Source: Methanobacteriota archaeon (GTDB taxonomy: Archaea > Halobacteriota > Methanosarcinia > Methanosarcinales > Methanosarcinaceae). Taken from it: a DNA stretch of 64,000 nt. Location of the stretch: assembly GCA_016841625.1 (NCBI GenBank), contig JAENYU010000023.1, forward strand, positions 1 to 64,000. The letters run 5' to 3'. A program made the translations under genes and the position numbers. The notes under the pieces are model-generated. The model was not told where the DNA came from. It was given only the letters and a program-made list of their open reading frames with translations, and made no database searches. Of the stretch, positions 22,069 to 51,483 are shown in pieces (position 1 is the stretch's first letter; every line of letters starts with the position of its first letter).

Positions 22069-25729
<3,661 letters not shown>

Positions 25730-32312: not shown

Positions 32313-33157
32313 GTCGAATAACAGGGTGGGATTACTCCCTACCCCGTCTTCTAGGAACCGGACTTGAATTTTTCAATTCATCCGGCTCGAGCCACTACTA
32401 CCCTTTCGGGTGTCAGTTTGGAACGGAATTGGATATATTGATACGTTTCTTCCTGTGATATTCCATTATTTTCCATTGTTCGAAATAATTCTTATCGATA
32501 AATGGATTCTTTTGAAGACTTGCTAATCTTTGCCTAACAATTTTGGCGTTAGAGAATCTCTCTAACGTCTGTACTTCTGTGCAGAATATGTATTTTCTGC
32601 TATCAGATTTATGCCAGTATTTGGTCATTATCCAATTGAGACCTTTGTTCGGATGTCTCCTTTTTGCCCAGGAGATAAGCATGTGAAAGACTATGTTATC
32701 AAGTTTGCTGAATACCGCAGATGAAACTGCATGATTGTGATACTGTGCCCATCCTCTAATAATTGGATTGAGTGTTCGTATCAATCGGTCTTGATCCCAT
32801 GCTTTTGCTTCGTTGATTATTGCACTGATTTTCCTGATAACTTCAGTCTGCGATTCTTTAGATGGCTTCGGAAGGAGTTTGCCTTTGTATCTCCTGAAGT
32901 TCCATCCTAAGAAATTGAACCCTTCACTAATATTAGTCACAAGGGTTTTTTCTTCGCTGAGCTTAAGTCCACGAGGATCTAAAAATGCTTGGATGACATC
33001 GATGATATTATGAGCTGTTTCGGATGAATCAGCGGTTACCACAAAATCATCAGCAAAGCGTATGAAATTGACCTTGTGCTTGTTGAGATGAGATTTGTCA
33101 ATTGTTCCGTCTGGTTTGGAATAATAGATACTCGCTAGGACCTTTTCCATTCCATTT
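32313..33157 (-). mobile_element. 3-prime half of a group II intron
   Basis: It ends TTATTCGAC at 32313; domain V is at 32355-32388, also 34 bases. Its stem differs from the inner intron's domain V by paired changes (GACGG/CTGTC against GAATT/AATTC), supporting a real structure. It encodes the RT C-terminal half. Confidence 0.85.
32413..33157 (-). pseudogene. Group II intron RT, C-terminal part
   Basis: Begins within LNGMEKVLASIYYSKPDG, includes IRFADDFVV and the maturase domain (PIIRGWAQYHNH), and ends normally. It is very close to the inner-intron RT at 22898-24397. About the first 250 residues are missing and replaced by the ISAzo13-like element. Confidence 0.85.
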
Positions 33158-33178
33158 AGGAATGACTGAAAAATAACT

Positions 33179-34392
33179 TCAAGTTTCCACTTCTGGAATT
33201 GCTCTATAATTCCATTTTCCCAAATAATCATCAAATACAATTTTCATTTTTTCCTTGAAGTTTTCACTTACTTTTCTTCCCGTGGCATAAACTTTATCCT
33301 TGATAGTTGAAAACACCTTCAGTCCTGTGGATGTACAAGTCTTATCAACGAGACTTTTAACCACCTCAACACTGCTGAAAACAACACCTTTACAGGCACT
33401 CGTAACATGACAGAATAACCTGTGTTCTATCGGATTGTATTTCGAAGTATATGGTGGATAGTGAGCCATTCTGATTTCAATCCCAATTTCATTGGCTAGC
33501 TTTTGTAGGTCTTCTTTGAAAATATAATGCCTACTTGAGTTGCTTCCACCGCCATCTGCCAGGACTAAAATGCTACTTGCCTGGTGGTAATCTTCCTTAC
33601 CGTAGTTTTCCCACCAGTATTTAATGCAGTCACAACAAAACTCGCTCGTATCCTTAGTGGTTCCCAGAGTTATGTATCCCTCGTTGCGTTTTAGGTCGTA
33701 TATGCCATGTGGAATTACAATACCATCTGAAAATGTATTGAAGTCGTGGTCATAAACCTTTACCGTTTCAGTACAGTAAACTTTTCCATCTCGGTAGAAA
33801 TTGCCTAAGAATTCTTTTTTTTCACATCTATACTGATAATCGGATTCTCGCTTTCAGAGTACTCTTCTTTCAACTCCTTAATCCTCTCAAATTGCTCATT
33901 TCTGTCTTCACAGTCTTTCATTGCAACGGTTTTTTGCATTTTTCTCTTTACAAAACCATGTTTCTTCAAAAGCTGCTTTACTACATGAGGTGTTACATTC
34001 ATACCCCTCGATTTAAAAGCATTTGAAATTTCTTTATGATTCAGATTTGTCCATTTTATGTCTTCGTCCATAGGGCTTCCAGCCGTATGGTTTTTTAAGA
34101 TCTCAAAGAAAACTTCATCGATATTTTCTACCGTGTCGATGATTTTCTTTTTACCCCCTCCAGGCTTTCGAATCCTGTCCTCTGGTGTTTCTGTACCATT
34201 GGTGAGTTCAGCAATTCCAGCCATGACAGTCTGAAAATGGCAACCCAGCACATCACTTATGTATTTTTGTCCCCCATGACCTAATTTCATTGCTTCTATG
34301 GATGCATATCTTCTTCTGTTTTTCTCGTTCAAAGAATCATAAAATGCTTTCATTTGCTTTTCAATGTCTTCCAAATATTTCTTGCACGCCAT
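33179..34392 (-). CDS. ISAzo13-family transposase, probably made by -1 frameshifting
   Basis: Frame 0 runs from ATG 34392 to a TAG at 33805-33807. The -1 frame continues without a stop to 33179. The joined product is about 404 aa. DDE residues are the Asp in IISIDVKKK, Asp in LVLADGGGSN, and Glu in YNPIEHRLF, all intact across the shift. The N-terminal region carries an HTH (SIEAMKLGHGGQKYISDVLG). The shift occurs at A-AAA-AAG (33820-33814), a classic -1 slippery heptamer, directly after the first catalytic Asp codon. The alternative is a one-base deletion that inactivated the gene. Confidence 0.75.
33814..33822 (-). promoter_or_regulatory. Candidate programmed -1 ribosomal frameshift site
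   Basis: Minus-strand A8G. In frame 0 the codons are AAA AAA AAG; slippage by -1 makes the next codon GAA and opens a frame of about 210 codons with the rest of the catalytic domain. The zero-frame stop follows two codons later. Confidence 0.55.
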
Positions 34393-34492: not shown

Positions 34493-35046
34493 GCATTCAT
34501 AAGTTTGCTTCCTTTCATGTAATAGAACACCTACGGCAAGTCTGCTCCCTTTCGGGATAAGGCAAATTCTGAACCTCTATGCATTCCATTACAGAATGTC
34601 ATTCGCTTTTTACCTTTTCCTTTATCCCCTGTGCCATTGTTGTTTCTCGCGAAATTCCTACCCTTTTTTTTTTGTGGGAGCACATGGGACTTACCAAGTT
34701 CTGAATTTATGGATAATATGACCATTTTAGGAGTTATCTGTAGACCGGGAACATTTTGTTTGCTCATTATACCGTTTGGAGAGCCAGTATAATCCGGTTC
34801 CTTACCTGTTGGTTCAAGTGTATCAACCCATTTCACTTGTCGCTGATTACGATCCTTACGATAATTCAACTTTCGTTTCTCCATGATAGTCTTTCCCTTG
34901 CAGATTGATCAAATTAGGTTTTTGATCTTTTCCACGTTGTCTTGCAGGCTTCACACAATTTTGTTACCAAAATGCATGCTGCAATAGGGATATCCTGAGC
35001 AAATAGGATAGCTTATAGCAATCCATAATTCAGCTTCTTGTCGCAC
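34493..35046 (-). mobile_element. 5-prime half of a group II intron
   Basis: It begins GTGCGACAAGAAGC at 35046 and resembles the 5-prime part of the outer intron (26256 downward), including the block around the RT start (AACACC, CCCTTTCGGG, CCATTACAGAATG). It stops at the ISAzo13-like element a few codons into the RT gene. The exon upstream (GCTGAAAATGGAG) is IS21 terminal sequence, not istB, so it was a separate insertion from the 3-prime half. Confidence 0.7.
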
Positions 35047-35148: not shown

Positions 35149-35756
35149 ACAAAACAAAATACGCTTGAAAACAATAACAAATACAATAATTTACAGGTTT
35201 TTTAAAGATTTATTAGTCAGTGATGACTGTGAAAAGTCGTTCCCATTCGGAACTATGGCTATTCGGAACTACTGTATACTTCACCAGTATAATCAGCATT
35301 CACTCATATAAGTATAGAACAGTGTAAAAAGATTATATTCAAGCACATATAAGACATGTAAAATAATTTAATACTATAATTTGAATTGGCAACAAAAACA
35401 AGGAAACATACAATATACCGTAAAAAGCTAAGCAAAAATTCAAGAAAATGCAGAAATAAATGATACAAGTCAGTAATGACACGAAAATGGGGGAAATTAT
35501 AGTTATTTACTTAAAGTATTAGATTATAGCAGAGGCAAACGTAAAAGGAAACAATAAACCTAACCAATTTAGTTCCAACAAAAGTTAACAAACAAAAAAA
35601 ATTGAATTGATAAATCATATCGTCCTCAAGGTTCTTGAAAGGAATGACCACTCCTCACAGCAATATGAGGGGTCTACTGAAACAAAAATTAACATGATTA
35701 AGAGAAACAAAAGCTTGGAAACCGAAACATCTTTAATAGCATATGGGGAAATTTGA
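35149..35756. other. AT-rich intergenic region
   Basis: About 600 bp without an ORF. There is a short direct repeat ATTCGGAACTA (near 35238 and 35256) and a weak hairpin TATACTTCACCAGTATA. The last part is similar to the region before the cohesin gene at 39428 (GGGGAAATT then ATG-initiated leader). Confidence 0.5.
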
Positions 35757-35891
35757 ATGCAAAAGAAAAGCGTGCTGAACAACACATTATGCCCGAGTCG
35801 GATTTTACTGTTATTTACCTCTTTAAACATAGTTATCACAGTTACAGAATTATCAAAAATTATAACCATAGCACCAGAAATCCTGCCCCAT
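35757..35891 (+). pseudogene. Relic of a cohesin-protein leader fused upstream
   Basis: These 45 codons, in frame with the next gene, match the signal-peptide region of the cohesin protein at 39428 at DNA level (GAACAACACATTA, GATTTTACTGTTATTT) but have lost the Ala-x-Ala cleavage region. The next gene has its own signal peptide from Met 35892. It may act as a 5-prime leader or promoter copy. Confidence 0.6.
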
Positions 35892-38831
35892 ATGAATATT
35901 AAAAAAACACTTTTCAAAAAGTGTACTAAAATAATTACCTACTCATTTTTAGTAGTTCTTTTACTTTCATTTGTAGGGTTTGCATCGGCAGCTGATTACT
36001 ACGTATCAACTGAAGGAAGTAATGAAAATAATGGATTAACTTTAGATACAGCATGGACCACACCATCTTATGCTGCAACTAAAGTAGTCTCAGGAGATAC
36101 AATTTATCTTGTAAATTGCACATGGTATGAAGAAAAGATACATTTTAGCAATAATGGCACTGAGGAAAAACCAATCACAATTAAAGCGTACAATGGAACG
36201 CCAACACTTGATGGGATAGTAGGAGCAGTGTCATCTTCCGATAGAGGGTTAGACATAACTAACAGTGAACACATTGTAATCAGAGGTTTAAAAGTATTAA
36301 ACTACACTCATCCTTTGTATATAAGATCCTCAAACAATATCTCTGTATATGATTCAGAATTTAGTAATTCGATTGGCGGTTTCACAGTAGGTATTGCTAA
36401 CACAGATACTTACCATACTTTGATTGATAATTGTTCTATTCATAATTCTGGCTGGAATGCAATACAGATTCAAGGGAATAGAGAATTACCAAATGGAAAC
36501 GGAATTGCAAGTGAATACATCACAGTTACTAATAATACAATATATAACAACAGCAAACATGGCCATATTGATTTATATGGGAATATAAAACATGTACTAA
36601 TAAAAGACAATGTAATGTACAATAGTAAATATACTGGGATATATTCACATTCAGTCACAGACAGCCAATGGAATATAACTATTATAAATAATACCATTTA
36701 TAACTGTTCATATGGGATGAAATTTGAAAATTTACATAATTCCAATATAGTTAGTAATGAGATTTACGATATAGATGCTTATGGGATATATACAGGAATT
36801 GGTTCAGATAATATTACCTTTTGCGAAAATAATATTTCAGCACAAGATTATGCTTTTCAAGTAGGAGATTCTAATTTAACTTTAGCAAGAAATAAATTGA
36901 ATGATAATATAGTATATAGGCTTAATGAGGATGGCTTATTTACTCTCGAAGATGCCATTGATAATTATTACAATATATATTTGACAAAAGGTGCCAATAC
37001 GACAGTGAAGTACACTACAAACCAAGTTTTTACAATACAATCAATACGTTCTGATTCTACTTATGAAATATCCGACATATGGTATAAATGCGATAAAAGT
37101 GAGTTAGTGATAAAATCGAATCCCAATGGATCTTTGTTAGCTTGCATTCAAAAATATCCCTTTTACATCCGTCCTATTAATCAACCTCTAAAAGTTACAT
37201 CAGCAAATAATACCACTCTACAATTACATTCAGATTTAATAGACAATCCAGTATGGATAAGTGTCGATCTTTCTGAATACTCCGATAGTTCTGTGATAAT
37301 GTTAGTAGATGGCAAACCCTATGAATATGAAACTGCAAACAAAGTTGGTCTCGTAACTTTTTATTACAATGAAACATGGAATACAGATCACATATTTACA
37401 TTTGAAAAAAATCCATTAAATTCATCAGAAGATTTATTCAACACTACAATATCAGGATACGTAGAATCTTCCAGTGGCTTTCCCATACCTGATGCTTTTG
37501 TGTTCAATAATGTCACAAATGAGATTGTTACCACAGATCCCAATGGGCATTACAATTTAAATATACCTACTAATAACAACGTAAAAATTACTGCTGCGAA
37601 AGAAGGATATTACTCCAGTTCATTTTCTGTTAAAGTTGGAGAAAAAGACATTTCAAATGCAAACCTTGTCTTAAATAAAGAAGAGACTGAAGATTCAACA
37701 CACGTTAAGATATCTCAGTCAAACAGATTCATAACTCCAAACCAGCCTTTCACAATCGAGGTTTCAATCAATCCGGATACAGCCATAACCGGAGCCCAGT
37801 TTAACCTGCTATTCGACAGTTCAATGGTAAGCGCAGACAGTGTAACTGAAGGAAACCTTCTCAACCAGGACGGAGCTGAAACCCTGTTCAACTGCGGGAC
37901 CATCAACAACAGCTCAGGAACAGTTACAGATGTCTACGGCTCAATCCTTGGCAAATCAAATGTTTCTTCAGAGGGAGTGATGGCAACCATCACCATGACC
38001 GCAGGAAGCGTCACAGGCATAACAGAACTAAAACTCTCCAATGTAATTGTTAGTGACAGCGATTCAAAAGCTGCGCCAATTACCATTAGCAATGCAACCG
38101 TGCTTATCGATACCGCACCTGTCCTGAATTCGATCGGTCCTAAATCGGTTAGTGAAACGAACACACTGAACTTTGCAGTGGATGCTAGCGATGCGGACGG
38201 AGATGAACTGACATATTCAGCCACAGGCCTTCCGGATGGAGCAAACATTGACCCGGCAACAGGAGTGTTTACCTGGGTACCAGCCCCCGGGCAGACCGGC
38301 GTTTATACGGCCACCTTTGAAGTAAGCGATGGGTACCTCAGCGATTCCGAAGATGTCTCAATAACCGTGAATCCAGCAAACAATGTCCCGGTAATTGATT
38401 CTTTTGAACCGGAGAGCGGAGCAAGCTTCAAAGAAAAAGACAAAATCAACATTTTAGTAAGCGCATTCGATCTGGACGGGCAGTTCCTGAACTACATCAT
38501 CAAGATCAATGGAGTAACGTGCAGCACTGAGCCGACTTATATCTGGAAGACCGACTTCTCGAGCAGTGGGGAGTATACTGTAGAAGTAACGGTAAGCGAT
38601 GGAGTCGATCAGGTAACAGAGCAGCACACCATCTACGTCAATGACTACCATCCTGAATGGGACGTTAACAAAGACTGGAAGGTGGATATCCTGGATATAG
38701 CCACAGTCGCTCAGGAAATCGGAACTACTACAACCGAACCTTATCCGAGGTGGGACGTAAACCAGGATGGGGAAGTCAATATCCAGGACCTTAGCATTGT
38801 TGGATACCACTTTGGGGAAAAAATAGAGTAA
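35892..38831 (+). CDS. Secreted beta-helix protein with cohesin, Ig-like and dockerin domains
   Basis: About 979 aa from ATG 35892, where a proper signal peptide starts (MNIKKTLFKKCTKI, then FASAADYYVS). The order is: right-handed parallel beta-helix of the NosD type (many N-N-T-I-Y-N repeats, about residues 30-380); a carboxypeptidase-regulatory-like domain (ISGYVESSSGFPIPDAFVFN); a type I-like cohesin (VSINPDTAITGAQFNLLFD to IVSDSDSKAAP); a putative-Ig/cadherin-like repeat (DADGDELTYSATGLP); a PKD-like domain; and a C-terminal dockerin with two Ca-binding repeats (WDVNKDWKVDILDIATVA and WDVNQDGEVNIQDLSIVG). In the first repeat a Trp replaces the usual Gly of DxNxDG. The beta-helix part suggests carbohydrate binding or cleavage. 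Having cohesin and dockerin on one chain would allow self-assembly. Confidence 0.85.
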   Translation: MNIKKTLFKKCTKIITYSFLVVLLLSFVGFASAADYYVSTEGSNENNGLTLDTAWTTPSYAATKVVSGDTIYLVNCTWYEEKIHFSNNGTEEKPITIKAYNGTPTLDGIVGAVSSSDRGLDITNSEHIVIRGLKVLNYTHPLYIRSSNNISVYDSEFSNSIGGFTVGIANTDTYHTLIDNCSIHNSGWNAIQIQGNRELPNGNGIASEYITVTNNTIYNNSKHGHIDLYGNIKHVLIKDNVMYNSKYTGIYSHSVTDSQWNITIINNTIYNCSYGMKFENLHNSNIVSNEIYDIDAYGIYTGIGSDNITFCENNISAQDYAFQVGDSNLTLARNKLNDNIVYRLNEDGLFTLEDAIDNYYNIYLTKGANTTVKYTTNQVFTIQSIRSDSTYEISDIWYKCDKSELVIKSNPNGSLLACIQKYPFYIRPINQPLKVTSANNTTLQLHSDLIDNPVWISVDLSEYSDSSVIMLVDGKPYEYETANKVGLVTFYYNETWNTDHIFTFEKNPLNSSEDLFNTTISGYVESSSGFPIPDAFVFNNVTNEIVTTDPNGHYNLNIPTNNNVKITAAKEGYYSSSFSVKVGEKDISNANLVLNKEETEDSTHVKISQSNRFITPNQPFTIEVSINPDTAITGAQFNLLFDSSMVSADSVTEGNLLNQDGAETLFNCGTINNSSGTVTDVYGSILGKSNVSSEGVMATITMTAGSVTGITELKLSNVIVSDSDSKAAPITISNATVLIDTAPVLNSIGPKSVSETNTLNFAVDASDADGDELTYSATGLPDGANIDPATGVFTWVPAPGQTGVYTATFEVSDGYLSDSEDVSITVNPANNVPVIDSFEPESGASFKEKDKINILVSAFDLDGQFLNYIIKINGVTCSTEPTYIWKTDFSSSGEYTVEVTVSDGVDQVTEQHTIYVNDYHPEWDVNKDWKVDILDIATVAQEIGTTTTEPYPRWDVNQDGEVNIQDLSIVGYHFGEKIE

Positions 38832-38841
38832 AGAGACCTGG

Positions 38842-38879
38842 CGCAGGTACGGGGAACCTGCGTCAAAATTACTTTTTTT
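38842..38879 (+). terminator. Hairpin plus T-tract terminator
   Basis: CGCAGGT (38842-38848) pairs with ACCTGCG (38856-38862) and is followed by T7 at 38873-38879, just after the dockerin-protein stop. Confidence 0.7.
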
Positions 38880-38985
38880 AACACCTCTCACTATTTTGGA
38901 ATACTATTACTTTTTTGACATCTCTCACTATTTTGGCATATTAGTACTTTATTGACATTGTCACTATTTTGACATATTTCTACAT
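38870..38985 (+). repeat. Degenerate tandem repeat of about 37 bp
   Basis: At least three units of the type TTACTTTTTTGACATCTC + TCACTATTTTGGCATA. No coding potential. It lies between the two cohesin genes. The rest of 38986-39427 shows only AT-rich sequence leading to the next gene. Confidence 0.65.
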
Positions 38986-39427
38986 TTTTAAGACATTATT
39001 ATTTTATTTACAAATATATGGAAATACTGTATAAAAAAAGTTACTTATACCTTGCCCAGCTAATAAAAAAGCGGGAATGGTAATAGCAGAAAAGGGGTTA
39101 CCGGATTGATTAGAGCAATGTTAGCTCTATACATGACTAATTCTGTTTATGAATAAATTCTGTCCATGGGCACTGGAAGTTTTCGGGAAAAAGCTCAAAA
39201 TACATCTCACTGCCCTGAAACTTTCAAATAATCACTATCTCCGATTAGCAGATCCGGGTATTTTCATGAATACAGCCTTATTCGACCCTTTTCCTTCAGC
39301 ATAAAAATGCCGGCATCATACAAAATAAATTTATAATTAAAAAGTGTAAAATGAAGATCGATAGATATTGAGAGATTTATAAAAATTGCAAAACTAACTG
39401 GCTTGAATAACGAGTGGGGAAATTCAA

Positions 39428-40696
39428 ATGCACAGGAATAGCCTGCAGAACAACACATTACACCTGAGTCTGATTTTACTGTTATTTGTCTCTTTGAGCA
39501 CTGTATTTACAGGCATCGCTTCAGCAGAGACAATTGTAAGCATATCACCGGAAACGCAATCCATAGAAGAGAATCAGGATTTCATCCTGAGGATATATGT
39601 CGAACCCGATGCACCGATATCCGGAGCTCAGTTTGATCTCATATTCGATAACTCCCTGGTCAATGTCAGGGAAATCAGGGAAGGAGATCTATTAAAGCAG
39701 AAAGGAACTACCGTGTTTAGCCCGGGTACCGTTGACAACTCACAGGGTACTGTTACCGATGTTTACGATGTTATCCTGAACAAAATGGTGACAACACCCG
39801 GGACACTTGCAACGGTCTACCTCAGTTCAACCGACGGCTCCGGAGCATGCAAATTAGAGCTAACAAATGTGTTGGTAAGCGATTCAAGCGGCGGCTCAAT
39901 TCCGGTAACAGTGATAGACGGTACTGTCAGTATAGGAGATACTTCGACATCCCCTGCTGAAACAATATCAGGCGGGGGAAGTGGCGAAGGGGGAGGAGGA
40001 GCAGGTTCTCCCGAACCCTCCGAGAATGTCAAGCTAAAAGAGCTTTCCCAGTGCTTCATAAGCAACGGGGTTCGGGCCAGATATATGTTTAAAGGGGACA
40101 TCAATGACATAAGGTATGTGGAATTTGACCCCAAAAGAAGCTTTGGGAAGACCACAGCAATCATCGAGATTCTCAAAGGAAAATCCACACTGACCCCGAT
40201 CGAACCGGAAGGGCGGGTATATCAGCACATGAATATCTGGATCGGGACGGACGGGATTTCAAACTCTGATAACCTTGAAAATGGAGCTGTGGGCTTTAGA
40301 GTCGAAAAAGCCTGGATCAATGAAAATGAAATTGATCGGACCTCTATCACCCTGAACCATTTCAGCAACGATAGGTGGGACGTGCTTGAAACCTTGCAAA
40401 CCGGCGAGGATGACCTCTACCTGTATTTTGAAGCCGAAACTCCGGGTTTTTCCCCGTTTGCGATAACCGGGCAGAGTACCAGGACCGTGCAGACCGCAGA
40501 AAGTTCAACCCAGGGTTCAAATGAGGTTAGGGATTCAAACGATGCCCCGAGATCAGAAGCTACTTCAAAAGCGACTCAGGCTCCAGAAGGGGAAAATGAG
40601 GCGCAGGTAGAGAAGAAGGACTACTCCGCAATTATCTACGTTGCAATGGGAATAATCCTATTCTTGCCCGTACTCCTGATGTTTAAAAGAAGTTAA
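39428..40696 (+). CDS. Membrane-anchored cohesin protein with PGF-pre-PGF domain
   Basis: 422 aa. Signal peptide to about residue 33 (GIASAET). A cohesin domain follows at about 34-175 (VEPDAPISGAQFDLIFD, LTNVLVSDSSGGS), then a Gly-rich linker (SGGGSGEGGGGAGSP). A PGF-pre-PGF domain spans about 200-350 (DINDIRYVEFDPKRSFGKTT, ending near TPGFSPFAI). An acidic Ser/Thr linker leads to a C-terminal membrane segment with a basic end (GIILFLPVLLMFKRS). PGF-pre-PGF domains are typical of archaeal surface proteins, often with a PGF-CTERM tail; here only a plain anchor is visible. The protein presents a cohesin at the cell surface and could dock the dockerin protein encoded upstream. Its leader is homologous to 35757-35891. 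Confidence 0.85.
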   Translation: MHRNSLQNNTLHLSLILLLFVSLSTVFTGIASAETIVSISPETQSIEENQDFILRIYVEPDAPISGAQFDLIFDNSLVNVREIREGDLLKQKGTTVFSPGTVDNSQGTVTDVYDVILNKMVTTPGTLATVYLSSTDGSGACKLELTNVLVSDSSGGSIPVTVIDGTVSIGDTSTSPAETISGGGSGEGGGGAGSPEPSENVKLKELSQCFISNGVRARYMFKGDINDIRYVEFDPKRSFGKTTAIIEILKGKSTLTPIEPEGRVYQHMNIWIGTDGISNSDNLENGAVGFRVEKAWINENEIDRTSITLNHFSNDRWDVLETLQTGEDDLYLYFEAETPGFSPFAITGQSTRTVQTAESSTQGSNEVRDSNDAPRSEATSKATQAPEGENEAQVEKKDYSAIIYVAMGIILFLPVLLMFKRS

Positions 40697-40761: not shown

Positions 40762-41805
40762 TCACAGCCTTCCCGGAATGAGAATGCCTATAGCGCAAAA
40801 AACCGAGGTTAGCAAAAACATTGCGTAAGTTGCCTGTTTTTCAGTCACATTATAGTAGTAAGGCAGAACCCATTTCAAAGTAAGAGAGTTGGGGACTTCC
40901 AGAATACCATCCCCACGGTCCCTCCCAAATTTTGCAACGGGGTATTTCTTAACCTTCCAGTACACATACATCAAAAAATTTACTGTGTGCGGAATAAGCA
41001 TAATGAAGCCGCTTATTAAAAAGCCCTGTATAACTATGATAGCCCCTATGGCAGCCCCAATCACCAGGGAACCCACATTTCCCCAGAAAATTTTTGATGG
41101 GTAGTGGTCATAGATGTAATAGCCAAGTAAAGCTCCGGTTAAAGCGACTACTGTTACTATATTCTCAACGTCACTTATCAGTATAGATTTAATAATGAGA
41201 GAACACAATAAAATTACTGATAAGCCGGATGCAAGACCGTTATATCCGGAGTGCATGTTCACGAGATTTGACGCAACAAGTACGTATGTAGGAATTATAA
41301 ACTGAAGAGAGAGAAAACCAAGAGAAATAGCCCAATCCCCAGAGTATAAAACCAGAGGATTGGGTACGTACTGGAGAAGGGGATAGGTACAGTAATACAT
41401 AATTATGAGTTTGGACAACCGTCCTATGTTTATCATATCATCCAGTATCCCGAACAGCCCGAAAAGTACGATAATTACCAGAATAACATAGTTTTGGGTT
41501 GTGAACTTAAAAAATAGGGAATTTAAGGATATTGAAAGTAACGCTATGAGCAGGATAAGAAGCCCGCCTGACGTCGGCACCATTGTTGGCACCTTCTTGT
41601 AATAATCTTTAACTACTAACTTATTTTCCTTCAGCTCATTTATGAAATAAGGCATAGTCACTGCTGTAACTAAGAAGGGAAATAAAAAATTGCTTAAGAG
41701 TTCAAGTACTTCAATCCGATTATTAAGAAGTAAATCCATTAAAATAACCACTTCCAGTTCCCATTTTTCATTTGATCCATATTGTTTTTGATCCTGGATT
41801 GCCAT
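40762..41805 (-). CDS. MraY/WecA-family polyprenyl-phosphate sugar-phosphate transferase
   Basis: 347 aa with about ten membrane segments. Family motifs: FGLFGILDDMINIGR (Asp-Asp Mg-binding pair), ASNLVNMHSGYNGLASG (Asn and nearby residues of the D-N-x-D-G-like site), and FWGNVGSLVIGA. It transfers a sugar-1-phosphate, in archaea often GlcNAc-1-P, to a dolichyl or polyprenyl phosphate on the cytoplasmic side, the first step of N-glycan or surface-polymer synthesis; compare AglH. The start may be ATG 41739 (MDLLLNNRIE) rather than 41805. The archaeal variant lacks the strict NxxNxxDGLDG of bacteria. Confidence 0.82.
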   Translation of the reverse strand: MAIQDQKQYGSNEKWELEVVILMDLLLNNRIEVLELLSNFLFPFLVTAVTMPYFINELKENKLVVKDYYKKVPTMVPTSGGLLILLIALLSISLNSLFFKFTTQNYVILVIIVLFGLFGILDDMINIGRLSKLIIMYYCTYPLLQYVPNPLVLYSGDWAISLGFLSLQFIIPTYVLVASNLVNMHSGYNGLASGLSVILLCSLIIKSILISDVENIVTVVALTGALLGYYIYDHYPSKIFWGNVGSLVIGAAIGAIIVIQGFLISGFIMLIPHTVNFLMYVYWKVKKYPVAKFGRDRGDGILEVPNSLTLKWVLPYYYNVTEKQATYAMFLLTSVFCAIGILIPGRL

Positions 41806-42114: not shown

Positions 42115-42618
42115 ATGTCAAAAATAAAAAAATACGATATTTTCGCTTTAAGCACCATTTCATATGCAATCTTGATTCTCTACTTATCAGTTACTTCAAA
42201 CCTGGGAGACCTGAAGAACTTCCTGATAATGACCCTGGGTCACAAAACAAGAGACTCACTCGTTGAAAACAACCTTTATTTTATCAAAGATTTTTTGCTT
42301 GATTCCTTAAAGTTTATCAATGGTCTATCCATAGATCCAGCTCATCTCACAATTTACTTCGTATTCGGGGTTTTACTGTATCTTGCATTCTCTAATTCCA
42401 AAAACCCGTTCTTAGTAAAATATCCGGCAGTTTACGCCATATGCACGGGCACAGCTTATGGCATTCTCAATGAGATCTTTCAGATGTATCTCCCTTTCCG
42501 TGTAGCAAGCATGGCAGACGTAATGTCGAACTTAATTGGAATTGTACTTGCCCAAATTGTTGTAATAATTTTTGCCCATGGACTAAAAGAAATTTTCAAA
42601 ATGAGAGATACTCAATGA
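42115..42618 (+). CDS. VanZ-like membrane protein 1
   Basis: 167 aa with four predicted membrane segments and the VanZ-like pattern: an N-terminal helix, DPAHLTIYFVFGVLLYLAF, and a Glu-rich GILNEIFQMYLPFR, then DVMSNLIGIVLA. VanZ-like proteins are membrane proteins of uncertain function. It lies 42 bp upstream of a paralogue, giving a two-gene operon by recent tandem duplication. The gene opposite encodes a lipid-linked sugar transferase, suggesting an envelope role. Confidence 0.75.
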   Translation: MSKIKKYDIFALSTISYAILILYLSVTSNLGDLKNFLIMTLGHKTRDSLVENNLYFIKDFLLDSLKFINGLSIDPAHLTIYFVFGVLLYLAFSNSKNPFLVKYPAVYAICTGTAYGILNEIFQMYLPFRVASMADVMSNLIGIVLAQIVVIIFAHGLKEIFKMRDTQ

Positions 42619-42660
42619 TAAAAATTTAGATCCAGGGTTAAACAACCACCTGAGGATTAA

Positions 42661-43188
42661 ATGTCAAAACTCACCAAACCTGGCAACTTAATCATAATCA
42701 CAATTTTGTATACTATCCTGATATTCTATCTCTCAGTCACACCCACCGTATCCCCCATAAAAAACTTCCTTAAAACCAATGTCCTCTATAAAACAAGAGA
42801 TTTCCTGGTCCAGAACAACCTTTCTTCTGCCGCAGATATTTTTACAGGACTTTACCACCATGTTGCAGACATGTCCCTGGATATGGGCCACATATCAATC
42901 TACGCAGCCTTCGGATTTCTACTCTACTTCGTGTTTCTGAGATCCAAAAACAAAACACTTAGCAGCCAACCAGCCCTTGCAGCCGTATATGTAGGTTCCG
43001 TGTACGGACTACTCATGGAGATAATTCAATATTTCACTTTAAATCGAAAAACCGACATTACAGACGTGTTTTCAAACCTGCTGGGACTTGCCCTTGCACA
43101 GCTCGCTCTAATCACACTTATTTTCGGATTAAAAGGCCTCATCCTCCTGCTGGAATCAATTCAAAAAAAGAAAGAAGAGATGCTGTGA
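42661..43188 (+). CDS. VanZ-like membrane protein 2
   Basis: 175 aa, paralogue of the preceding gene: same N-terminal pattern (IFYLSVTPT), DMGHISIYAAFGFLLYFVF, LLMEIIQYFTLNRKTDITD, then DVFSNLLGLALAQ. Four membrane segments. The acidic residue in the third segment and the DITDVFSN motif are conserved between both copies. Confidence 0.75.
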   Translation: MSKLTKPGNLIIITILYTILIFYLSVTPTVSPIKNFLKTNVLYKTRDFLVQNNLSSAADIFTGLYHHVADMSLDMGHISIYAAFGFLLYFVFLRSKNKTLSSQPALAAVYVGSVYGLLMEIIQYFTLNRKTDITDVFSNLLGLALAQLALITLIFGLKGLILLLESIQKKKEEML

Positions 43189-49883: not shown

Positions 49884-51483
49884 CCTCAATTTGACAGTTT
49901 AATTAAAATAAGTGCTCTTCGTTTTTCATCATTTGGTAATTATGGTTAAAAAACGAAGAGCATTTCCTACCATTCCGAACAAGAATATATGCCTTGCGAT
50001 GGGACCGATGGTTGTTGTTGACCACTATTATGAAAAGCTTAATTTTTCAGAGATATTTGGTAAGCATAAAAGTAAGGGCCTTGACATCAATAGTTTATCG
50101 ATTGGATTGTTGAGCTACAAGCTCACCGAGAATTTCAGCATCAAAGAAGCAAGTAAGTGGATGAATCAAGAAGAAATTATCGACATCTTAGACCTTGAAA
50201 GCTTCAATGAAAGAACCCTTTACAGAACCCTTGAAACCATTGGACAAAACAAAGATGAAATCCTCTGTGACATCCTAAACCATCTCTTTTCAGAATATGA
50301 TTTTGAACACACTGACGTGAACCTTGACTGGACAAGTTTAGTTCTTCACGGCAAAAAATGTAAACTTGGTAAACACGGATATAGCAGAGATCATAGACCT
50401 GATAAGCCCCAGATAACCGTTGGAGTTAGTGAACTTGCCTATCCCATAAACATCCCTATTGGGATCACAGTGAACAAAGGAAATGTTCTTGACTTACAAC
50501 ATTTCCCTGATACGTATAACCAGGTAAAAAGTAAACTTAATAAGCAGTCTCTTATTGTCTTCGATAAAGGGGCTAACACTACAAAGAACATTGAGCTCAT
50601 TACAGGAGATCAGATGAAGTATCTGACTTCAATGAAACTGAATACAAGTCATGACAAAATTATTGAGAATTTTGATAAGAATGATGAAGACAATGTTGAA
50701 GAGCTTGATCCTGAGAAAGGAATATATGGAATTAAAATCGTCAAGCCAAGTAGCATTAAGTACTTTTATTATTCTGAATTTTTAAAGGAAAACCAGTTAG
50801 AGTCAAAAGCAAGAGCTGTTAAGAGAAAGTTGCAGGAAGCAAAAGAGATTCAGAAAGCAATTGAAAACAAAAAAGAGCTTCCCAAAAAATTCAGAGTCAA
50901 CAATGAATTGATTGAGGTCAATTACTCATTTACGACCAAGCTTGAAAATATGAGTGAGGAAGAAGCAATAGAATTCCTAAAAAGTAAACTGATTACTGGG
51001 AGAGAAGGATTTTTCTGCCTAAAATCAAACAAGGATTTGACACTTCAGAAAGCATTGGAAATATACCGAAAAAAGGATTCTATTGAGAAAATCTTCCACT
51101 CGTTAAAGAACGAAATTCAAATTAAGCCATTGAGAGTGTGGTCAGACGATAGCATTTATGGGGCTATCATTTTGGGCTTTATCACTCAATTATTCATATC
51201 ATTGATGAAATATGAGTTTAAGGATCTCAAACATAGGTCCACAAAATTCATCAAAAAAAGTCTGTCGAATTTGACACTTACAGTCAAGTTCATGAAAAAT
51301 GGGGTCAAACAGTATATTTTTGCTAATTTTGACAAGATCAATAGCTTATTTGTAACAAGAAAAAGTGAGATTTCATAGAATTTATAATAATTCTTTATAT
51401 ATTGATACTATTTGTCAAACTCATTTTGGCCACAAAATTGGTGTGAATTTCAGTAGCAATTAGTGGATACTGTCAAATTGAGG
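49884..51483 (+). mobile_element. Intact IS (IS4/IS1634 group) with 6-bp target duplication
   Basis: The terminal inverted repeats CCTCAATTTGACAGT and ACTGTCAAATTGAGG lie at the ends; ATGTAT is duplicated at 49878-49883 and 51484-51489. The element is 1600 bp with one full-length transposase. A related but broken copy hosts the group II introns at 21613-26420. Confidence 0.92.
49942..51378 (+). CDS. DDE transposase, full length
   Basis: 478 aa from ATG 49942 (MVKKRRAFPTIPNKN); a GTG ten codons upstream is the alternative. DDE residues are Asp in NLDWTSLVLHG, Asp in IVFDKGANT and Glu in YRKKDSIEKIFHSLK, as in the IS4/IS1634 group. No stops or shifts, so the element is likely active or recently so. 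Confidence 0.88.
   Translation: MVKKRRAFPTIPNKNICLAMGPMVVVDHYYEKLNFSEIFGKHKSKGLDINSLSIGLLSYKLTENFSIKEASKWMNQEEIIDILDLESFNERTLYRTLETIGQNKDEILCDILNHLFSEYDFEHTDVNLDWTSLVLHGKKCKLGKHGYSRDHRPDKPQITVGVSELAYPINIPIGITVNKGNVLDLQHFPDTYNQVKSKLNKQSLIVFDKGANTTKNIELITGDQMKYLTSMKLNTSHDKIIENFDKNDEDNVEELDPEKGIYGIKIVKPSSIKYFYYSEFLKENQLESKARAVKRKLQEAKEIQKAIENKKELPKKFRVNNELIEVNYSFTTKLENMSEEEAIEFLKSKLITGREGFFCLKSNKDLTLQKALEIYRKKDSIEKIFHSLKNEIQIKPLRVWSDDSIYGAIILGFITQLFISLMKYEFKDLKHRSTKFIKKSLSNLTLTVKFMKNGVKQYIFANFDKINSLFVTRKSEIS

Follow-up and report, generated by a model that had tools for sequence, protein, structure and literature searches.

A cohesin–dockerin gene pair with a conserved docking cassette and exchanged cargo in Methanosarcinaceae

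Here we describe two neighbouring genes, ORF1 and ORF2, in a 64,000-nucleotide stretch of DNA (hereafter the window; contig JAENYU010000023.1, positions 1 to 64,000, assembly GCA_016841625.1) from a methane-producing archaeon of the Methanosarcinaceae. ORF1 encodes a secreted protein in which a right-handed beta-helix is followed by a cohesin, two immunoglobulin (Ig)-like domains and a C-terminal dockerin, and ORF2 encodes a cohesin with a PGF-pre-PGF domain and a predicted membrane anchor (Table 1). The pair probably forms a two-protein cell-surface display system, with ORF2 as the anchor and ORF1 as the docked protein. The domains, the fold of the ORF1 cassette, the single dockerin of the genome, the synteny, the exchange of cargo and the existence of two cohesin classes were established directly; binding, its calcium dependence, topology, chaining and the function of the cargo are what we infer.

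Results

Domain architecture of ORF1 and ORF2

The Pfam families Beta_helix (E 3e-16), Cohesin (5e-10) and Dockerin_1 (1.5e-9) all match ORF1 above their cut-offs, which bears out a first-pass annotation of this DNA that had given it a cohesin and a C-terminal dockerin. The signal peptide of ORF1 reads ...FVGFASA/ADYY. The cohesin belongs to PF00963 by both profile match and fold, and the dockerin is of type I under PF00404, having two acidic-ligand loops that are each followed by a helix in profile and model; the calcium ligands are complete in both repeats (DVNKDWKVDILD and DVNQDGEVNIQD). An AlphaFold2 model of the C-terminal 383 aa has a mean pLDDT of 92, and its dockerin part consists of the expected two helices, whereas the placement of the domains relative to each other is uncertain, as the pTM is 0.60. 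Structure comparison of the modelled cohesin with solved cohesins gave Z about 16-17, including the Archaeoglobus fulgidus cohesin 2xdh (Z 16.1, rmsd 2.3, 129 aligned), in agreement with the cohesin assigned in the first pass. In the Foldseek ranking for the whole cassette, the CipA cohesin-X-dockerin chains 4fl4 and 3kcp came first and third.

ORF2 counts as a PGF-pre-PGF protein by its TIGR04213 domain. Its cohesin lies close to the Pfam threshold (22.6 bits in the protein scan, cut-off 24.1; 24.9 bits in the genome scan) and is 44% identical to the ORF1 cohesin over 135 aa (E 2e-36). The PGF-pre-PGF match, this identity and the C-terminal helix together uphold the earlier description of ORF2 as a membrane-anchored cohesin. 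No PGF triplet was found before the C-terminal helix (C terminus ...YSAIIYVAMGIILFLPVLLMFKRS), and ORF2 does not qualify as a PGF-CTERM sorting substrate. Among PDB sequences, ORF2 also hit chains of MHC and antibodies; these hits were set aside as starting in Gly-rich engineered linkers or as chance.

Table 1. Features of the ORF1–ORF2 locus, in window coordinates
Feature	Position	Strand	Basis or remark
Truncated copy of ORF2 5' end	35731-35880	+	73% identical, blastn E 3e-21 vs 39402-39554
ORF1, 979 aa secreted modular protein	35892-38831	+	signal peptide by direct inspection of sequence
Right-handed beta-helix cargo of ORF1	35979-37019	+	Pfam Beta_helix, AlphaFold2 model, structure matches
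Carboxypeptidase-regulatory-like domain of ORF1	37446-37673	+	PF13620 E 3e-9
Cohesin 1 (ORF1-type)	37704-38108	+	profile, fold
Ig-like domain 1 (He_PIG) of ORF1	38115-38372	+	PF05345 E 4.5e-14
Ig-like domain 2 (PKD/Big_7-like) of ORF1	38388-38642	+	domain scan, AlphaFold2 model
ORF1 dockerin, two calcium-loop repeats	38649-38828	+	PF00404 E 1.5e-9
Stem-loop, 10 bp, conserved, then T run	38839-38879	+	probable ORF1 transcript end
ORF2, anchored cohesin protein (422 aa, signal peptide)	39428-40696	+	
Cohesin 2 (anchor type) of ORF2	39536-39934	+	profile, ORF1 cohesin identity, tree
PGF-pre-PGF domain of ORF2	40013-40471	+	TIGR04213 E 6e-57
ORF2 C-terminal transmembrane helix	40619-40684	+	hydropathy

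A fixed cassette with exchanged cargo

The last ~370 aa of ORF1 form a cohesin-Ig-Ig-dockerin cassette. Across 24 proteins, the stretch from cohesin to dockerin measures 365-373 aa, and the ORFs that host it range from 408 to 1569 aa. Identity of the cassette to that of the window is 80% in the sister species (G002), 68% in G001 and 67% in G095, while local matches between the cargos reach ~21% in the sister species at the same locus and ~23-25% in G001; the beta-helix of the window resembles Methanolobus cargos (~28-33%) more closely than cargos from its own genus. Two genomes (G001, G003) encode 455-aa cassette proteins nearly without cargo. A scan of 32 cassette or dockerin proteins brought up further cargos or additional domains, among them CBM96, CBM9, a Disaggregatase-related domain, PA14 and a papain-like protease. 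Judged from these sequence comparisons, the cohesin-Ig-Ig-dockerin unit is a fixed docking cassette, and its N-terminal cargo is exchanged between lineages.

A truncated copy of the 5' end of ORF2, covering the start region, the signal peptide and the first cohesin residues, lies in frame with and immediately upstream of ORF1. The ORF1 reading frame is open from as far upstream as 35757; because this extension is the ORF2 copy and the start at 35892 has a signal peptide of its own, 35892 is the likelier ORF1 start. Comparison with the loci of G001, G002 and other relatives turned up no such copy. It is consistent with a recombination scar, in which case the cargo may have been gained by way of a duplicated cohesin gene.

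Conservation of the pair and of two cohesin classes

Dockerins were found in 61 of 111 Methanosarcinaceae genomes and cohesins in 68. The same adjacency of an ORF1 and an ORF2 with cohesin and PGF-pre-PGF domains occurs in four further genomes (G001, G002, G084, G095), and variants of it in other genera, so the pair does not owe its existence to chance. ORF2 is 80-86% identical within the genus, and a short cohesin gene takes its place in G015, G016, G082 and G083. At two loci (L096, L105) three genes encode, respectively, a beta-helix-CBM9-dockerin protein, a cohesin-dockerin protein of ~230-246 aa and a cohesin-PGF-pre-PGF protein; this form is cargo, adaptor and anchor split into separate proteins. 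Beyond the family, an order-level relative (G277) and one genome from a different group of the phylum (G379) have the full-length cassette, which is otherwise rare in the phylum. Larger arrangements were also seen: on contig C171 of G105 (L102/L103), cohesin and/or dockerin genes are clustered in an arrangement far more elaborate than the pair in the window, with 13 dockerin and 14 cohesin matches in that genome, and at L098 (G007) the gene for a dockerin protein of 1266 aa precedes one for a 490-aa protein that has two cohesins.

In a tree of 40 cohesin sequences, a branch with support 97/90 separates the 24 ORF1 cohesins from the rest, another (91/95) does so for the 8 PGF-pre-PGF cohesins, and the two sets are held together at 99/99. 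The ORF1-type and ORF2-type classes appear to predate the genera, and their age and joint retention argue for two distinct jobs. This retention across genera also bears on the proposal that the modules are ordinary Ig-like and EF-hand-like parts of a stalk, whose pairing has been lost and whose adjacency has been inherited. Such a proposal would accommodate the weak Pfam score of the ORF2 cohesin and the degenerate first dockerin repeat of some relatives. We consider it improbable, as the calcium ligands of the window's dockerin are intact and the key dockerin aspartates are invariant in an alignment of 34 homologues.

A single dockerin in the genome

Dockerins and cohesins were counted on the 3.76 Mb assembly, which is 99.7% complete. 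Pfam detected one dockerin above cut-off and three cohesins genome-wide. Family-specific profiles, for which 34 dockerins and 40 cohesins from relatives were used, returned the same numbers and nothing further in the genome up to E 10. The three cohesins belong to three different proteins, and the third of these, encoded on contig C47, is of PKD type, secreted and 562 aa long. A weak Pfam match on contig C33 was rejected as a second dockerin, as the protein is c-type-cytochrome-like with CxxCH motifs. The first-pass annotation had advised a search for other dockerin genes, of which the genome has none by these profiles, and had called the set unlike a cellulosome. That view is supported: with a single dockerin there cannot be several dockerin-bearing enzymes, and a multi-cohesin scaffoldin is lacking. 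At the level of genes, the locus is a pair of the A. fulgidus type, in which a dockerin protein adjoins a cohesin protein and few such modules occur genome-wide; A. fulgidus presumably has one dockerin and two cohesins in total, and we take its dockerin protein, ORF2375, to bear a cohesin as well.

Given a single dockerin, docking within the genome is confined to the cohesins of ORF2, the C47 protein and ORF1, either another copy's or its own. Since that dockerin sits on a cohesin-bearing protein, docking of ORF1 onto ORF1 is possible. This opens the way to a head-to-tail fibre, in which the ORF1 dockerin would mainly bind the ORF1 cohesin to build a repeating surface filament, with ORF2 merely as its base. 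Of 17 nearly complete genomes in which Pfam finds just one dockerin, 13 carry it on a cohesin-bearing protein, the ORF1 cohesin is kept as an orthologous class of its own in a genome without another dockerin, and the nearly cargo-less 455-aa proteins would be pure linkers. However, the cohesin and dockerin of one chain could pair intramolecularly or block each other, and their relative placement in the cassette model is uncertain; we regard the fibre as an unlikely account of the pair.

The lack of a second dockerin for the ORF1 cohesin would also fit a capture of dockerin proteins from other members of the community, leading to cell-cell or cross-species attachment. In its favour, dockerins are plentiful in anaerobic methanotrophic (ANME) archaea (PMC9012536, PMC5244752). 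Species specificity is usual for cohesin-dockerin pairs, however, and no partner protein came to light, so that we give this proposal very little credence.

The beta-helix cargo

The AlphaFold2 model of the beta-helix has a mean pLDDT of 79 and a pTM of 0.77, with nearly all blocks at 80-98 up to about residue 310. It matches AlgE C5-epimerases, PL6 lyases, Pel9A, RbmB, tailspikes and others (Z 28-33, 10-18% identity), with Z 29-33 and 12-17% identity for the polysaccharide lyases and epimerases; a fold in common does not establish function. Across 13 homologues, His194, Asp198 and His224 (alignment numbering; codons at 36558, 36570 and 36648) vary little or not at all and, unmatched to a known active site, constitute a candidate active site. 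A phmmer match to 3jur (E 2e-5) raised the possibility of a GH28 polygalacturonase, but where 3jur has its catalytic DGID and GDD the aligned beta-helix has VGIAN and GWNA, which leaves GH28 membership unsupported. The earlier remark that no catalytic glycosidase is evident calls for a qualification: it passes over the resemblance to lyases and epimerases and the invariant His and Asp residues, and the model speaks neither for nor against activity. The beta-helix probably binds or modifies an acidic polysaccharide of the cell-envelope matrix or the environment. Methanochondroitin, a uronate-containing matrix of some Methanosarcina that is cut by disaggregatase (PMC12369344), would be a plausible target.

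Genomic surroundings

The gap between ORF1 and ORF2 (38832-39427, ~600 bp) has a mean column identity of 76% in four genomes, compared with 49% for the region upstream of ORF1, and Rfam gave no match between the two genes. Downstream, at 40762-41805 (-) and 42115-43188 (+), lie a GT4/MraY-like glycosyltransferase gene (PF00953 E 1e-24) convergent to the pair and then two VanZ-like genes; genes for multi-helix membrane proteins of similar size flank the cassette gene at the same spot in most relatives examined, including Methanolobus. Upstream, part of a group II intron ribozyme and reverse transcriptase/maturase genes or fragments were found at 34867-35010 (-), 32413-33240 (-) and 22069-25729 (-). 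Transposase genes or fragments (ISAZ013-type, DDE_Tnp_1) flank the pair on both sides, at 33805-34392 (-) and 49912-51378 (+).

Discussion

In the display system that we favour, ORF2 would be exported, stay anchored in the membrane through its C-terminal helix and expose its cohesin on the PGF-pre-PGF stalk. ORF1 would be secreted, and its C-terminal dockerin would bind the ORF2 cohesin in a calcium-dependent manner; this would keep the N-terminal beta-helix on the cell surface, within reach of the acidic polysaccharide that it probably binds or modifies. Surface docking of this kind had been proposed in the first pass and is supported by the domains found, the binding itself being conjectural. 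The self-polymerisation suggested there is allowed and, through the position of the sole dockerin on a cohesin-bearing protein, indirectly favoured; if ORF1 also docks onto ORF1, short chains may extend from the ORF2 anchor. The count of 13 in 17 genomes given above supports docking with possible chaining as well. In different lineages, different cargos would have been recombined onto the fixed docking cassette.

Several observations weigh against this system. The conserved terminator-like stem-loop past ORF1 suggests that ORF1 and ORF2 are on separate transcripts. Most Methanolobus loci examined have an ORF1-type gene without an adjacent cohesin gene, so that the anchor would need to come from elsewhere. 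The third cohesin, in the C47 protein, could be the real partner of the dockerin. Finally, dockerin repeat 1 lacks one calcium ligand in four relatives within the genus (L078, L079, L080, L097).

The first-pass annotation was right that the role of such a pair is unclear, but a precedent with measured binding deserves to be named: the ORF2376 cohesin and ORF2375 dockerin of A. fulgidus form a strong, specific pair (PMC9705933, citing Voronov-Goldman 2011, its reference 16). There too, the dockerin and the cohesin come from separate archaeal ORFs with consecutive numbers. Set against A. fulgidus, the features here are a PGF-pre-PGF anchored partner, a beta-helix cargo and a cassette found with swapped cargos in many Methanosarcinaceae, the A. 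fulgidus flanking domains lying outside this comparison. The C-terminus of CipA from Clostridium thermocellum (3kcp, 4fl4) has the same order of cohesin, Ig-like module and dockerin, and docks onto a separate surface cohesin protein. ORF1, unlike CipA, has one cohesin rather than many, no cellulase partners and an archaeal anchor, with ~22% identity over the aligned residues. The surface proteins of ANME archaea (PMC9012536, PMC5244752) are likewise a non-cellulosomal use in related archaea, but they are many and include multi-cohesin scaffoldin-like proteins, compared with one dockerin and three cohesins here.

Full-text literature searches, in which subscription papers were mostly out of reach, returned no description of the Methanosarcinaceae locus. 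Since pairs of this type are known from A. fulgidus and ANME archaea, the kind is known and the variant is new; what is new lies in the conserved locus, the exchange of cargo and the economy of a single dockerin. More tentatively, the locus could be one dedicated to surface display in Methanosarcinaceae, with the cassette as a recombination platform whose cargos are swapped at its N-terminal edge, a constant, matched anchored cohesin, and a single dockerin giving self-chained arrays.

In summary, the puzzle of non-cellulosomal cohesins and dockerins in archaea is reduced here to a small, testable system: a lone dockerin, three cohesins and a single anchor, with cargos that have been swapped naturally across related species. 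If the pairs bind, methanogens would possess a modular, possibly polymerising surface display, which would also supply orthogonal docking parts. Such binding would further bear on the ways in which polysaccharide matrices are remodelled by archaea or serve for their attachment.

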